Shown here piece by piece: positions 5,607 to 14,797 of a stretch of DNA of 16,161 nucleotides; positions within the stretch are counted from its first letter, which is position 1; each line of letters begins with the position of its first letter. The notes under the pieces are model-generated. The model had not been told where the DNA came from, searched no databases, and saw only the letters and a list, made by a program, of their open reading frames with translations. Location of the stretch: NCBI GenBank assembly GCA_022710665.1, contig JAKLGN010000014.1, positions 1-16,161 of the forward strand. Reading direction: 5' to 3'. The position numbers and the translations under genes are program-made. The stretch is from Methanoregula sp. GTDB taxonomy: Archaea > Halobacteriota > Methanomicrobia > Methanomicrobiales > Methanospirillaceae.

Positions 5607-6857
5607 ATGACAGCGACAATCGTAGAGAAGATATTCTCCCGGAAATGTGGCAGCGATGTGAGGGCAGGCGACGTGGTCATGGCCCCCCTTGACGGGGCGA
5701 TGATCCATGATATCACCGGCCCGCTTGCCATCCAGAAGTTCTACGAGATGGGCGGGAAGAGGGTCTTTGACCCGGATCGTGTCATCATGCTCTTTGACCA
5801 CCAGATACCGGCCGATTCGATCGATGCAGCAAACATCCACGTGTACATGCGGAAGTTTGCCGCTGAACAGGAGATCCATAACTATGATATCAATGCGGGA
5901 GTCTGCCACCAGGTAACCATCGAGAAAGGCCGGGCCGCACCCGGGGAGATCGTTGTCGGAGCCGATTCTCACACCTGCATGTATGGCGCTGCGGGGGCGT
6001 TTGCCACCGGCATTGGTTCTACCGATATGGGCTTTGCCCTGAAGTTCGGCGCTCTTTACTTCAGGGTACCGGAGACAATACGCGCAGAAGTATCAGGAAA
6101 GTTCCCGACACGGGTAGGGGCAAAAGACCTGATCCTTGCCATTGCCGCAGATATCGGTGCCGACGGGGCTACCTACAAGGCACTCGAATTTACCGGTAAG
6201 ACCGTGCGAAAACTCGGTATGGCCGGCCGGATGACGCTGTGCAACATGGCAATCGAGATGGGCGGCAAGGCCGGTATTGTTGCCCCGGACAAGGTTACGT
6301 GGGAGTACATGAAGGGCCGGCGGAAGATGAAACCCTTTGAACTCGACAGTGACGAGGATGCTGTCTTCGCGGAGCACCGGTCGTACACTGTTTCGGATCT
6401 CGAACCGCAGGTTGCTGTACCGCATAATGTGGATACCGGCGTTCCGGTGAGCAGGGTTTCGGGAACAACGATCGATCAGGTCTTCATCGGGTCGTGCACG
6501 AACGGGCGTTTCGAAGACCTTGCGGAGGCAGCCGAGGTGCTGGGAAGGAAGAAGTTCAACCCGAAGATCCGGGTCATCATCATCCCGGCCTCCCGGGACG
6601 AGTACCTCAAGACCCTCCGGGCAGGACTCATCGAAAAGTTCGTGAAAGCCGGAGCCCTTGTTGAGGCGCCGTGCTGCGGTCCGTGCATGGGGGGGGCGTT
6701 CGGGCTGATTGCACCCGGCGAGGTTTCGCTCTCGACATCGAACCGGAACTTCAAGGGACGGCAGGGAAGCACGGAAGGTAAGGTGTACCTCTGCTCCCCG
6801 GCAACCGCTGCGGCAAGTGCTATTACGGGTGAAATCACCGACCCGAGGGAGATCTGA
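5607..6857 (+). CDS. leuC: 3-isopropylmalate dehydratase / homoaconitase-type large subunit
   Basis: This 416-residue protein is the catalytic, [4Fe-4S]-carrying subunit of an aconitase-superfamily hydro-lyase of the archaeal two-subunit type. Cluster ligands are visible as Cys297 in IGSCTNGR and Cys357 and Cys360 in APCCGPCMGG. GADSHTCMYGAAGAFATGIG (119-138) is the conserved substrate and cluster loop. The C-terminus has the expected S-T-S-N-R-N-F-K-G-R-Q-G segment at about 376-387. Such enzymes isomerise 2-isopropylmalate in leucine synthesis or act on homocitrate-series acids leading to 2-oxosuberate and coenzyme B; sequence alone does not separate LeuC from HacA/AksD. It begins a tight operon: the small subunit ATG starts one base after its stop. 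The leader includes a three-codon frame ATG-AGA-GCA-TGA whose stop overlaps the start codon. Confidence 0.93.
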   Translation: MTATIVEKIFSRKCGSDVRAGDVVMAPLDGAMIHDITGPLAIQKFYEMGGKRVFDPDRVIMLFDHQIPADSIDAANIHVYMRKFAAEQEIHNYDINAGVCHQVTIEKGRAAPGEIVVGADSHTCMYGAAGAFATGIGSTDMGFALKFGALYFRVPETIRAEVSGKFPTRVGAKDLILAIAADIGADGATYKALEFTGKTVRKLGMAGRMTLCNMAIEMGGKAGIVAPDKVTWEYMKGRRKMKPFELDSDEDAVFAEHRSYTVSDLEPQVAVPHNVDTGVPVSRVSGTTIDQVFIGSCTNGRFEDLAEAAEVLGRKKFNPKIRVIIIPASRDEYLKTLRAGLIEKFVKAGALVEAPCCGPCMGGAFGLIAPGEVSLSTSNRNFKGRQGSTEGKVYLCSPATAAASAITGEITDPREI

Positions 6858-6858
6858 C

Positions 6859-7413
6859 ATGGCAGCAAAGAGGACCGTTCCGGTCCAAAAGGTCGTAGTT
6901 ACCGAAGGAGCCATCGCGAAGAATGCCCGGGCATGGAAGTTCGGCGACGATATCGATACCGACGCCATCATTCCGGGTCGCTTTTTGACGATAAACAACC
7001 CGGACGAGCTTGCAAAACATGCCTTTGAGGGTACCCGGGACGAGTTTGCGAAAAAGGTGCAGCGGGGTGACGTGATTGTCGGCGGCCGGAACTTCGGTTG
7101 CGGGTCCTCCCGCGAACATGCACCGCTCGCCCTGATGGGGGCCGGCGTGAAAATCGTGGTTGCCCAGTCATTTGCCCGTATCTTCTTCCGGAACTCGGTT
7201 AACGTAGGAGTACTCCCCGTGGTCTGCCCGGATGCGGACAAGATCGCTGACGGTGCGAAAGTCACCCTGAAAATTAAGGATGGTTATCTTGAAGCAGACG
7301 GAAAGCGGTACGCAATCGAACCCGTGCCGGCATTTATGCAGGGCATCATTGATGCCGGGGGACTCGTGGAATACGCAAAGATCCTCGGGGAGGTACCGGT
7401 ATGTACAAGATAG
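6859..7413 (+). CDS. leuD: 3-isopropylmalate dehydratase / homoaconitase-type small subunit
   Basis: This 184-residue swivel-domain subunit pairs with the upstream large subunit and carries the substrate-specificity loop. Motifs seen are [17 protein letters not shown] (about 27-43), [15 protein letters not shown] (76-90) and [12 protein letters not shown]. The segment after PGRFL reads [11 protein letters not shown], where related enzymes often have LRTTDPxELASH, so the specificity loop differs from common ones; I cannot derive the substrate from this. The protein has about 15 extra N-terminal residues compared with the shortest relatives. The ATG at 6859 is chosen because it follows the large subunit stop by one base; the open frame extends further upstream but inside the large subunit gene. 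Its last 13 nt overlap the dehydrogenase gene. Confidence 0.92.
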
Positions 7414-8522
7414 CGGCAATCGGCGGGGACGGGATCGGCCCGGAGATTGTTGCCGAGGGGAAGAAAGTGCTGGAGGCAGCAGGGGAGGCGTATAACTTCG
7501 ATATCCAGTGGACGGACTTTGATTTCGGGGCTGACCGCTACCTTGCCACAAAGAAACTCCTGACCGATGACGATTTAAAGGAACTCAAAAAGTTCAAAGC
7601 AATTTACTTCGGTGCCATCGGCGATGAGCGGGTGAAGCCGGGCGTACTGGAGAAGGGGATCCTCCTTGCCCTCCGTTTCCACTTCGACATGTATGTGAAC
7701 CTCCGACCGATCAAGCTCCTCAAAGGGGTTGAAACACCGCTCGCAGGAAAAGGTCCGGAGGATATCGATTTCGTGGTCGTCCGCGAGAACACCGAGGACT
7801 TCTATGTCGGTATCGGTTCACGCTTTAAAAAGCACCAGAAGATTGATCTGGACGTTGTCCGCGACCTCTACAGCGTGAAATTCGGTCTCGATGTTGCAAG
7901 TGATGCAGAGGAGATCGCCTACCAGATCGGGGTCATCACCCGCGAAGGCTCCCGCAGGGTCCAGACCTATGCGTTCGATCTTGCCATGCAGCGGAAGAAG
8001 AAGCTGACATCGGTGGACAAGGCCAACGTCCTCTCAGACGTGTATGGCCTCTGGCGCGACGTGTTTACCGAAACCGCGAAGAACTACCCGGAGGTTTCTA
8101 CCGATTTCAATTTCGTCGATGCCGTCACCATGTGGTTTGTCAAGAACCCGGAGTGGTTCGATATTGTGGTCACACCCAACATGTTCGGTGATATCATAAC
8201 CGACCTCGGCGCCATGATCCAGGGAGGGCTCGGTCTTGCCCCGGGCGGCAATATCAACCCCGAGGGCACCTCCATGTTTGAGCCGATCCACGGCTCCGCA
8301 CCGAAATACAAAGGCATGGGTGTTGCGAACCCCATCGCTACCATCTGGGCAGGATCACTCCTGCTCGATCACCTTGGCGAACACAAAGCTGCCGCGGCCG
8401 TTGTGAAGGCGATCGAGAAGAGCATCAAAGACGGCGTTGTGACAAAAGACCTCGGGGGCAAAGCGGTAAGTACCTCAAAGGCGGGGTCGTACATTGCCGA
8501 GTGCGTGAAGAAGGGGAGATAA
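7401..8522 (+). CDS. leuB: isopropylmalate / homoisocitrate-type NAD-dependent dehydrogenase
   Basis: This 373-residue protein belongs to the isocitrate/isopropylmalate dehydrogenase family of decarboxylating beta-hydroxyacid dehydrogenases. [10 protein letters not shown] (8-17) opens the fold, [11 protein letters not shown] (97-107) and the [10 protein letters not shown] block (128-137) form the substrate site, and [12 protein letters not shown] supplies metal-binding aspartates. HGSAPKYKG with [10 protein letters not shown] forms the cofactor site. The arginine-rich helix (LLALRFHFD) also fits. In RENTED the usual glycine after T-E is replaced by aspartate, unlike typical LeuB or Icd, so the substrate may be 3-isopropylmalate or the homoisocitrate series used for coenzyme B (AksF). 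It overlaps the small subunit gene by 13 nt and completes a hydro-lyase plus dehydrogenase operon. Confidence 0.88.
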
Positions 8523-11330: not shown

Positions 11331-11741
11331 TCAGACCATCGCACCGATGGTCTGCTGATCGGCCGCAACCCGGCGCAGTTTTTGTGCCGGCGACTCCGGG
11401 ATCCGCACAATGACTGCCAGCCGCTCTTTACCATAAAGTACATTCCGTAGGGTATTGAGGGAGAGGGTAAAACTGCCGGCACCAAACAGGTCGATATTCA
11501 GGGCTTTGCCGGAGACCGAGACCTGCGCAAGACCGCTCGTTACCCCGAGGTAATATTCCCAGTTGCGGGTAAGTTCCTCGACCTGGATCAGGGTGCGGCC
11601 GGCTACAGCTTTTGCAAGGTCAGACCGGCGGATCGCGTACCTGGCCCCGCAGATATGGAGATCAAGAACTTCATGGGGGTGCCCGTCACTGTCGAGCGCC
11701 TGGCACCCGGTCCGCTGGAGATACCCTGCTTTTTCCATCAT
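11331..11741 (-). CDS. unrecognised 136-residue protein downstream of the nitrogenase-like genes
   Basis: I do not recognise this protein. It is soluble, with no signal peptide or membrane segment, and looks mixed alpha/beta with strands around HEVLDLHICGARYAI, LIQVEEL, LAQVSVSGKALNIDLFGAG and RLAVIVRIPE. It has only two cysteines (13 and 31), so a ferredoxin-like cluster is unlikely. The start is well supported: GGAGGTG lies 7 nt before the first of two adjacent ATGs (11741, 11738), and TTATATA lies at 11784-11790, predicting a leader of about 20 nt. It is on the same strand and 114 bp downstream of the K-like gene but has its own promoter, so it may be separately regulated. A link with the nitrogenase-like enzyme is only positional. 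Confidence 0.7.
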   Translation of the reverse strand: MMEKAGYLQRTGCQALDSDGHPHEVLDLHICGARYAIRRSDLAKAVAGRTLIQVEELTRNWEYYLGVTSGLAQVSVSGKALNIDLFGAGSFTLSLNTLRNVLYGKERLAVIVRIPESPAQKLRRVAADQQTIGAMV

Positions 11742-11855: not shown

Positions 11856-12986
11856 TCAAATCGTGGGACGAAGGTGGTCCATGCAGGTATTCAGAACCTG
11901 TTCCACAAAAAAGAGCGTCCCGTTTATCCCGGCAACAGGAGCGGGGGCAAGCCTTACCGCTCCTCTCAGGGGGGGTGTAATACCATAAAATGCCCGGCTG
12001 CCGCTTACGGATCGTTCGAAGGAAGAACCAAGGACAATATCCGGGTCATGAAGTTCTATCATTGTTTTTACCTGTCCAAGTCCGGTAACCAGAGAAGAAG
12101 GATAGCGGGACAGGCCGCCGGTGTTCCGCAGTCCGAGGAACCGGATATCGGCATCGAGATAGTGTTCAAGGGTCCGGGCAGCAAATTCCGCATACGATGC
12201 CCCCGCAAAAACAACGACCGACGGGGGGTCGAACCTCCGCAGGAACTTGTCGCAGACACGGGAGACCTCTTCTTCCTGCTGCGACAATTCCCTCATGACC
12301 GGGTCGATATCGGATCCTTCAACGACATCGCCGAGCCTCTCAAACGTGGCTTTCAGCCTGTCAAAACCAAGGGTCCCGCCGATATATTTCCCGACGCCAC
12401 TCAAAAAATCCCCGTTCGTACCGATTGTACAGGAAGCGGCTGTGCGGGTCTTTGAAAAGGCATCACGGCAAAAGACCGTTGCAACCGGGACCGACGCCAG
12501 ACCAAGCAGCCGCCGGATCTCCTGCAGGTTTCCTGAAAAAAAGGGATCGAGCAGGCAGATCCCGTCAATATTTACACCCTCTGCAGAACGATCGACCGCC
12601 GGTTCGAGGATCTTCAGCGCCCTGGCATACCCTGATTCTGCATCTCCGGAAAATCCCGGGCTGTCCACGAGAAGGACATCATGTTCAGCCAGCAGGGACG
12701 GGGTATCCTCGCCAAGGATTGCGGGGACGCATGTCGTGATCACCGCAATGCGATTGCCGGTGCCGTCAAGTTCCTCTATCACCTCCCGGAGCCGGTCCTC
12801 CGACCCGAAGATCACCTCGTTTTCGAGGATAAACGTTCCATGAAGAGGTGCGTGCAGGAGTGTTGTCGGATAATAATAACAGCCGCTGGAGCCGTGGATC
12901 ACAACGCTCATTCCTTCGAACCCCGCAAGAGCTGCGGCAGCCCCGGTCATGGCACAGGGCCAGAGAGGATTGTCGCATTCAGGCAT
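11856..12986 (-). CDS. nitrogenase component 1-like subunit (NifK/NifN-like)
   Basis: This 376-residue protein is a nitrogenase component-1 type subunit (NifD/K/E/N superfamily). Its start reads [20 protein letters not shown], with HGSSGC at 31-36, a GTFILENEVIFG block and TTCVPAILGED at 84-94. Cys11 (or Cys4), Cys36 and Cys86 reproduce the three-cysteine spacing that binds P-cluster-type clusters in NifD/NifK and simpler clusters in protochlorophyllide reductase. The extra N-terminal C-x6-C pair is unusual. It is far shorter than NifK (about 520) and close to CfbD-size proteins. The start at 12986 overlaps the upstream gene's stop by 8 nt (ATGCCTGA), so a downstream member of an H-D-K operon is clear. 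An in-frame ATG at 13067 would add 27 residues without family resemblance. The substrate is unknown. Confidence 0.85.
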   Translation of the reverse strand: MPECDNPLWPCAMTGAAAALAGFEGMSVVIHGSSGCYYYPTTLLHAPLHGTFILENEVIFGSEDRLREVIEELDGTGNRIAVITTCVPAILGEDTPSLLAEHDVLLVDSPGFSGDAESGYARALKILEPAVDRSAEGVNIDGICLLDPFFSGNLQEIRRLLGLASVPVATVFCRDAFSKTRTAASCTIGTNGDFLSGVGKYIGGTLGFDRLKATFERLGDVVEGSDIDPVMRELSQQEEEVSRVCDKFLRRFDPPSVVVFAGASYAEFAARTLEHYLDADIRFLGLRNTGGLSRYPSSLVTGLGQVKTMIELHDPDIVLGSSFERSVSGSRAFYGITPPLRGAVRLAPAPVAGINGTLFFVEQVLNTCMDHLRPTI

Positions 12987-13998
12987 GGATCGCCCGCCTC
13001 CAGCGGTGGAGCATCCTCCGTATACCGGATGAACCAACCACGGGATGGATCGGCAACTGACAGGCATCTTTGTTCCCGCTCATCCGTATGCGCAGGGCAT
13101 CAGCAGCTTCCCTTGCAGCCCGGGAACTCGCGGGATCCATGACCGGTCCGCAGAATATTCCCTGAGAATCGCCGATATCGGCAAAGTCTGCAAGGATCTC
13201 TGCCTGGAATTCCTGCTCGGTTCGGAGTGCCTTTCCCGGGTCGATCCCGCAGGCTGCTGCAACGGAACCAATGAACGCGAGGGTAGCCGAGAGACCGTCA
13301 GGGAAAGACGGGATATAGGGTGTCCCGAACCGTTGCCGGAGGTGCTCCCCGGCCGGTACCAGCGAAGGATCGCGGAGGATGTTGAGCCGGGCAGCGCCAA
13401 GAGCCGGAACATCGTCAGGAGAGATATTGCGCACGAACCGTATTCCCACCGGAATATGCAGGAGGGCGAGGAGACGCACAATCTCAGCATAATTCTCTTC
13501 CACCTCGTATTCAAGGTTTTTTTCCCCGATGATATTCACGCAGGGACCCGGCTGAGAGGGTTCTGAAAAAACGGTAAGCGCGATCAGGGCGTTATTGACC
13601 CCGTCCTGAAACGACCCCCCCAGGAAACCGGCAGTCGGCACCGGAATGACTGGTACCGGCCAGTCCCGGCCACAGACCGCATCCACATCGTCACCGATAG
13701 TCCCGGCAAGGCAGGTTGAGAGGACAAAGACCGTTGAGACATCCCGGTCGCAGACGGACCGGATCGTCCGGGCAAGGGCTTCCTCGCCACCAAAGATGAT
13801 ATCGCTTTCCAGAAGAGCGGATGAAACAAGGTCCGGGAGGGCTGCCTGCTCATTGTCGAGCATGGTGGCGTGGAAGAGGGAAAAGTTATGATGGGCGCAC
13901 CCCTTGGGGCCGTGGATAATACTCACGGCGTCCCGTACATGGGTCGTTATCGAGAGCGCTCCGGTAAGAGTGCAACCCCCGGACCTAGATGTATGCAT
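12979..13998 (-). CDS. nitrogenase component 1-like subunit (NifD/NifE-like)
   Basis: This 339-residue protein is the second component-1 type subunit. Cys9 in GGCTLTGAL, Cys34 in [11 protein letters not shown] and Cys96 in [12 protein letters not shown] match the three P-cluster-type ligands, and [11 protein letters not shown] (65-75) is the conserved segment between them. Homocitrate and FeMo-cofactor binding cannot be judged; later cysteines occur (for example in GPCVNI and IFCGPV), but I cannot align them to NifD Cys275. I chose the ATG at 13998, which overlaps the H gene's TAG by 14 nt and starts nine residues before the first ligand; the frame stays open to 14121 inside the H gene. Together with the K-like subunit it probably forms an alpha2beta2 reductase fed by the H protein. 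Confidence 0.85.
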
Positions 13999-14797
13999 AG
14001 GCAAGGATTTCAAGTTCATCGATCTCGAGAGGGGTAGGGATCGTAAGGCTCGTGTTCTCCATGACCCGGGTTGCAAGCGAGCGGTAGCGGGCTGCCTGTT
14101 CAGAGGCAGGCTCGTGCTCAATCACCGTCTTCCGGTTCAGCTCAGCGAGCTGCACCACGCGATCGCGGGGGATAAATTCCACAAGCCTGCTGTTTACCCG
14201 TTCTGCAAACTCGCTCACCAGCTCTTCTTCCTTTGGCTGGCCTTTGGCATTGCAGATGACGCCGGCGAGCCGGCACTTGCTCTTTGCCCGGGATGCCAGC
14301 CGCTTGATGGCCTTACAGATATTGTTCGCTGCATAGAGCGACATCAGTTCACCCGAGGTGACAAGGTAGATTTCCTGAGCGTACCCTTCGCGCATGGGCA
14401 TGGCAAACCCTCCGCACACAACATCTCCCAGCACATCGTAAACAATGACATCCCCTTTGAGCGCCCCGAACTTCTCAAGGATCTGGAAGGTGGCGATGAT
14501 ACCCCTCCCGGCGCATCCGACACCAGGTTCCGGTCCGCCGGCTTCGACACACCTCACGCCATTATATCCTCTGAATTCGACATCGGCGAGTGTTATTGCA
14601 GCATCGCCACGTTCCCGGACCAGATCCATGACGGTGGGTATGAACGTGCCGTGCATCAGCATGCGGGTGCTGTCCCGTTTGGGATCGCACCCGATCTGCA
14701 GGATATCAAGCCCCATACCGGATAATGCGGCAGAAAGGTTTGCCGAAGTCGTGGATTTCCCGATACCTCCCTTGCCATACAGGGCGATCTGCTTCAT
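13985..14797 (-). CDS. NifH/BchL/CfbC-like iron protein ATPase
   Basis: This 270-residue protein is a NifH-superfamily iron protein, the ATP-dependent electron donor to a component-1 partner. The P-loop GKGGIGKST (8-16) is intact. The two cysteines that hold the [4Fe-4S] cluster between monomers are Cys95 in GVGCAGRG and Cys128 in [23 protein letters not shown] follows the switch-like region, with arginine where NifH usually has alanine. ASGEL-like switch residues read [14 protein letters not shown]. It resembles archaeal NifH-like and CfbC proteins. The next genes, overlapping by 14 and 8 nt, encode two different component-1 subunits, unlike CfbC, which works with a single CfbD. The ATG at 14797 has no Shine-Dalgarno and lies about 26 bp after a TATA box, so translation may be leaderless. 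Confidence 0.93.

Follow-up and report, generated by a model that had tools for sequence, protein, structure and literature searches.

A nitrogenase-like H-D-K operon found throughout Methanomicrobiales, with an iron protein that is probably shared with coenzyme F430 synthesis

Which reaction is served by a methanogen operon that encodes a NifH-type iron protein together with two different small component-1 subunits? The question arises from the window (the whole stretch of 16,161 nucleotides of Methanoregula sp. that was analysed), in which the genes here called H, D and K follow one another on one strand (Table 1). H and D overlap by 14 bases and D and K by 8; longer mechanical starts of the open reading frames are also possible (380 aa for D, 403 aa for K), and the shorter ones were preferred because the family alignments fit them. 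The operon is real and does not reflect chance, since it recurs in at least 71 archaeal loci of named genome records. A preliminary description, made from the sequence alone, had reported three overlapping genes and short component-1 subunits with three P-cluster-type cysteines each, and this is borne out by the open reading frames, the Pfam matches and the alignments.

Table 1. Positions of the operon, its downstream neighbours and the related component-1 genes.
Feature	Sequence	Positions	Strand	Description
H	window	14797-13985	minus	NifH-type ATP-driven iron protein, 270 aa
D	window	13998-12979	minus	small NifD/NifE-type component-1 subunit, 339 aa
K	window	12986-11856	minus	small NifK/NifN-type component-1 subunit, 376 aa
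Small gene behind K	window	11331-11741	minus	136 aa; no match in Pfam and NCBIfam searches
Aconitase-family large and small subunit and isopropylmalate-dehydrogenase-like genes	window	5607-8522	plus	convergent
Fused H-D system	L171; L172	4494-7948; 4266-7762		NifH fused to component-1 protein (728 and 737 aa) and second component-1 gene
Lone component-1 gene	L168; L169; L170; L184	7450-8700; 4858-6129; 6911-8083; 5996-7171		391-424 aa

All three proteins exceed the Pfam cut-offs, H with Fer4_NifH (PF00142, 356.3 bits) and D and K with Oxidored_nitro (PF00148, 172.5 and 105.1 bits). Among the curated NCBIfam models, H passes F430_CfbC (NF033200; 410.5 bits, cut-off 402) and falls below nifH (TIGR01287; 386.2 bits, cut-off 394.35), so that the NCBI model already calls H CfbC. 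D and K remain far below every curated cut-off: the best model for D is nifE (92.4 bits, cut-off 505.1), and the best for K is CfbD (38.9 bits, cut-off 268.4). The H sequence contains GKGGIGKS and two cysteines (15 protein letters not shown), which are taken to be the P-loop and the cluster ligands. D keeps C10, C35 and C97, and K keeps C11, C36 and C86 (numbering of P0001 and P0002). These six cysteines are invariant in alignments of 25 D and 24 K sequences, from which the K of locus L044, with one stop in its tblastn span, was left out, and they correspond to the three cysteines that are conserved in NifD/NifE and in NifK/NifN. In a further alignment each of the 12 D and 12 K rows keeps its three cysteines. 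The FeMo-cofactor cysteine is absent from all 12 aligned D proteins (the two alignments differ by a shift of one column, and the cysteine is missing either way), and the C-terminal region that carries the FeMo-cofactor histidine is missing from D.

In order to place the two component-1 subunits, a tree was built from 69 chosen rows, including 12 D and 12 K proteins and CfbD, Nif and Bch subunits; one scoring step used a chosen set of 37 loci. D and K each form a clade of their own (100/100), apart from the CfbD, Nif and Bch subunits, as expected from the earlier proposal of an H-D-K type reductase lying outside those clades. D falls on the side of NifD, NifE, BchN and BchY, and K on the side of NifK, NifN, BchB, BchZ and CfbD; support for this split is moderate (81/82), and the Bch branches are long. 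Neither subunit groups with BchN/BchB or BchY/BchZ, which are represented by long branches from one organism. This mirrored placement of D and K fits a heteromer of the two and does not fit two copies of CfbD.

A search of genome contigs with D, which reaches close relatives only, recovered at least 71 archaeal loci and eight bacterial ones at about 30% identity. Of the 71 archaeal loci listed, all but one contain H and 63 contain K, and several of the contigs end early. The order was sampled with 119 Methanomicrobiales genomes, namely the genome of the window and 118 others of at least 90% completeness. Judged by best E-value, K occurs in 115 of these (114 genomes and a fragment in G020) and is missing from G043, G109, G112 and G116, where the best matches are paralogues or none. 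D occurs in 113 and is missing from the same four genomes and from the fragmented G020 and G095. Both were found in all six families sampled. When 295 genomes of the phylum were searched with a K model (E 1e-25, up to six candidates scored per genome), 61 Methanomicrobiales reached 407 bits or more and six other genomes 118 bits or less; no close match to K was found outside Methanomicrobiales in that sample. One genome (G094) carries two D and two K orthologues, on contigs C28 and C32, and in four Methanoculleus-type loci (L032, L037, L042 and L043) K lies about 3-5 kb from D on the opposite strand.

The match of H to a CfbC model raises the relation of the operon to coenzyme F430, a nickel cofactor on which methane formation depends. 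Its synthesis requires a NifH-type donor, CfbC being the partner of CfbD (PMC7242693). The assembly that contains the window (1.39 Mb, 242 contigs, 64% complete) has three component-1 genes, D, K and one on contig C188. The latter is a true CfbD (491.6 bits with TIGR03282, cut-off 268.4) within a cluster of the order cfbE-cfbD-cfbB, all three genes of which pass their NCBIfam cut-offs. Since cfbD is thus encoded separately, D and K do not constitute the known F430 enzyme; their distinctness from CfbD, asserted earlier, also follows from their separate clades and from the scores against the CfbD model, which D matches with 37.2 bits. The cfbE-cfbD-cfbB cluster contains no cfbC, and a search of this 64%-complete assembly found a single NifH homologue at E 1e-30 or better, namely H; three weaker matches reach at most 28 bits. 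The separate cfbD and cfbC that had been suggested as a check are therefore half confirmed: cfbD is present, and no second cfbC was found in the partial assembly.

The same arrangement is seen across the order. CfbD was found in 117 of the 119 genomes, and a NifH homologue (E 1e-30) in 118, with none in G095. Exactly one NifH homologue is present in 79 genomes; the other 40 comprise G095 and 39 genomes with two to five, at least some of which carry nif clusters. In 73 of the 79 single-NifH genomes the NifH gene lies no more than 300 bases from D (369 in G014), and the genome also has K and CfbD. The remaining six comprise G043, which has no D or K, G020, in which D and K are broken, G085 and G088, in which CfbD was not found, and G046 and G050, for which the NifH position is absent among the matches listed. 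The two genomes without a CfbD match at E 1e-20 (G085 and G088; 92% and 90% complete) do carry H, D and K. The best 20 CfbD loci of the order all read cfbE-cfbD-cfbB, with no NifH homologue within the 4 kb stretches (20 of 20). A CfbC model searched against 146 genomes of the phylum matched 87 at E 1e-60 and 64 over the curated cut-off. The best 30 CfbC-model loci comprise 13 of the order cfbD-cfbC-cfbB, two of the order cfbC-cfbB, and 15 in which H is followed by D, all of the latter from Methanomicrobiales; the canonical CfbC proteins at these loci share 45-50% identity with H of the window.

Because the essential F430 pathway needs a NifH-type donor and H is the sole candidate in most single-donor genomes, H is probably shared: most likely it is common to CfbD and a D2K2 complex and does the job of CfbC too. 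The first description had proposed an ATP-driven low-potential reductase and had taken the absence of any other cfbCD as a pointer to an F430 role. The reductase reading is retained; the operon is very probably not independent of F430, since H passes the CfbC model and a second cfbC was not found.

The H trees say less about where this protein came from. In a tree of 79 rows, H forms a clade that is separated from all but one of the 17 CfbC rows and lies closer to NifH-type proteins. In a second tree, from which six long-branch rows were left out (loci L002 and L049 had been omitted from the H extraction), H (34 rows, 100/98) and CfbC (15 rows, 100/100) are separate clades. Descent of H from canonical CfbC was considered: both trees place H outside the CfbC clade, yet a joint clade of H and CfbC is not rejected (p-AU 0.506). 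Since the trees could not decide descent, replacement of one gene by the other is not claimed here as shown.

An alternative would be that H serves D and K alone and CfbD takes its electrons from another, unrecognised donor. The location of H with D and K, away from cfbD, and its position outside the canonical CfbC clade would agree with this. It is nevertheless unlikely, as any other NifH homologue is absent from 79 of 119 genomes, and two genomes that lack D and K retain an H that still passes the CfbC model. These two genomes, G112 and G043, belong to the family of the window itself, and both carry CfbD; their H proteins score 406.5 and 419.2 bits. In both, H is followed immediately by a 140-171 aa relative of the gene behind K of the window and then by an archaeal NusA-like gene, with FprA located upstream of H and a PRK-type kinase or TrkH-like gene between. 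As H and CfbD are kept here without D and K, the latter are dispensable and H apparently is not. The H proteins of these two genomes form the sister group of every H that is accompanied by D and K (80/83 in the first tree, 98/82 in the second). The absence of D and K may reflect loss or may mean that they were never gained, and the sister position of H would fit gain as well.

If H is shared, as seems most probable, its two roles could be combined as follows. H would bind two MgATP and hand over single low-potential electrons to at least two catalytic partners, the CfbD homodimer (F430 reductase, encoded elsewhere) and a D2K2 heterotetramer. In the latter, a P-cluster-type iron-sulfur site to which D and K contribute three cysteines each would pass the electrons on to an organic substrate sitting where nitrogenase holds its cofactor, as in dark-operative protochlorophyllide reductase (DPOR). 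The composition of the complex, its cluster type and the shared use of H are what we infer from sequence and comparison. D2K2 is thus proposed to be a reductase of DPOR design with a nitrogenase-like electron entry site. The reading as a whole, in which H feeds both CfbD and a DPOR-like D2K2 that reduces an organic substrate, most likely a tetrapyrrole of the F430 or corrinoid family, is judged to have an even chance of being right.

Comparison with the characterised systems shows where D2K2 resembles each of them. DPOR (BchL-BchN-BchB) shares the H-D-K composition and the lack of FeMo-cofactor ligands; it differs in being a chlorophyll enzyme with only part of the six cysteines, the three cysteine positions of K being occupied by P, D and C in BchB. 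When the predicted folds were re-aligned (the AF2 model of D has a pLDDT of 89.9), the best Z was obtained with DPOR, clearly for K and slightly for D, a comparison that may be biased towards DPOR, most nitrogenase chains being longer. CfbC-CfbD is similar in the small size of its subunits and in the iron protein, which passes the CfbC model and is probably the same; however, CfbD is the product of one gene, has two of the three cysteine positions and forms its own clade, and canonical cfbC lies between cfbD and cfbB, whereas H is encoded with D and K. Nitrogenase and NifEN share all six P-cluster-type cysteines and the division into a D/E and a K/N side, but D and K lack the cofactor cysteine and histidine, are 100-200 residues shorter and score far below the cut-offs.

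The resemblance to NifEN gives rise to a further explanation, by which D2K2 would be a NifEN-like cluster scaffold or maturase that might supply [8Fe-9S-C]-type clusters to, for instance, the activation complex of methyl-coenzyme M reductase (MCR), a complex reported to need L-type clusters (PMC12176620). D scores best with NifE, and Foldseek ranked NifEN chains first for both the D and the K model among the matches listed. This explanation is unlikely, as the NifE cluster-ligand cysteine is missing from 12 of 12 aligned D proteins, the His-bearing C-terminal region is absent, and MCR is not confined to Methanomicrobiales, as K is in the phylum sample.

A sulfur compound had also been put forward as a substrate, together with a tetrapyrrole. 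D2K2 would then act like methylthio-alkane reductase (Mar) or isethionate reductase (Isr), and both the H-D-K composition and the six cysteines are as in Mar. Mar is described as having P-clusters and using an [Fe8S9C] cluster with conserved ligands (PMC12552129), counterparts of which are absent from D and K, and Mar and Isr are described as B-H-D-K sets that include a radical SAM gene (PMC11423573), a gene missing from the named conserved neighbours of H-D-K, part of the clusters having been annotated. The sulfur-compound idea is weakened by the missing FeMo-cofactor ligands and appears improbable, and the tetrapyrrole is favoured. That D and K are accessory to F430 reduction itself, required along with CfbD in this order, would agree with the common H and with D, K and CfbD being order-wide, but is very improbable because G043 and G112 keep CfbD and H and have neither D nor K.

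For the DPOR-like reductase, a tetrapyrrole of the F430 or corrinoid family is tentatively preferred as the substrate class, which is the weakest point of the reading. The weak pointers in this direction are the donor it would have in common with a tetrapyrrole reductase, the DPOR-like fold, and a chelate importer and CobN beside a sister system. In the latter (Table 1), which occurs in G112 and G025, H and D are fused; the D part of the fusion is sister to D (99/94), and the product of the gene behind it is sister to K (95/91). The system differs from the operon in this single chain and in its K, where D, C and P replace the three cysteines; nifH/nifE-like gene fusions were noted in 2012 (PMC3464626). 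The fused locus also encodes a periplasmic-binding-type protein, an ABC ATPase and a FecCD/BtuC-like permease, which scores best with BtuC (200.2 bits, below the cut-off of 334). In G112 it adjoins CobN (1007.7 bits, cut-off 822.05), and no CobN was found among the open reading frames listed for the 11 kb around the G025 fusion.

A more specific version, in which D2K2 would be a Methanomicrobiales-specific reductase of F430 or corrinoid macrocycles, perhaps acting in the repair of over-oxidised F430, and H would have displaced canonical CfbC order-wide and would feed two and in some genomes three partners, is doubtful. F430 is oxidised to F560. A literature search for this oxidation found no paper. 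The substitution of D2K2 for cobalt-precorrin-6A reductase (CbiJ, PF02571) was considered and given low weight, as CbiJ is absent from genomes with and without D and K alike: at E 1e-10 none of the 119 Methanomicrobiales genomes has a match, and three of 14 control genomes do, the Methanosarcina acetivorans control not being among them. Since K had no close match outside the order in the phylum sample and CbiJ is missing with or without D and K, the absence of CbiJ gives no hint on D2K2.

The gene neighbourhood, the comparison of which had been proposed as a further lead, proved conserved and yielded little on the substrate. Upstream of H are genes for FprA, TrkH, a PRK-type kinase and desulfoferrodoxin; because FprA, together with TrkH or the kinase, also accompanies H in the two genomes that lack D and K, these neighbours say little on D2K2. 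Among the loci compared, none of the conserved neighbours of H-D-K is a tetrapyrrole gene. The set downstream of the operon on the other strand is described as homoaconitase/isopropylmalate-dehydrogenase-like, and its isopropylmalate-dehydrogenase-like gene is present in 40 of 52 loci with enough sequence. The 136 aa gene behind K was found in 35 of the 52 loci whose downstream sequence is long enough, and it stays behind H in L138 and L140, where D and K are missing; it is a conserved neighbour and a candidate part of the system.

Pairs with six cysteines and no FeMo-cofactor ligands are known as a kind: the 'yellow' group of Dos Santos et al. 2012 (PMC3464626) has the same pattern and also comes from Archaea. 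The searched text of that paper does not name Methanoregula, Methanospirillum or Methanomicrobiales, and neither the H-D-K operon nor a shared iron protein is described in the open-licence literature searched, including that on nitrogenase-like groups IV and VI. As far as this literature shows, three things are new: an H-D-K clade that spans the order, its link to F430 by way of a common donor, and the absence of D and K from genomes that retain H. If H feeds both CfbD and D2K2, an essential cofactor pathway of an entire methanogen order depends on an iron protein whose gene lies with those of another enzyme, one nitrogenase-type donor serves several acceptors, and the cfbC annotation in these genomes is to be read as that of a shared gene. 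A six-cysteine P-cluster site in D2K2 without an active-site cofactor would also bear on the order in which the metal sites of the nitrogenase family arose.

Several genomes encode further component-1 proteins. The lone component-1 gene (Table 1) codes for three P-cluster-type cysteines and a cofactor-type cysteine, and in L168 and L169 it is located one to two kb behind cfbB. In single-NifH genomes (G052 and G019) its product would be a third user of H. Other archaeal genomes, represented by loci L147 and L161, carry at least two additional nitrogenase-like pairs next to each other.
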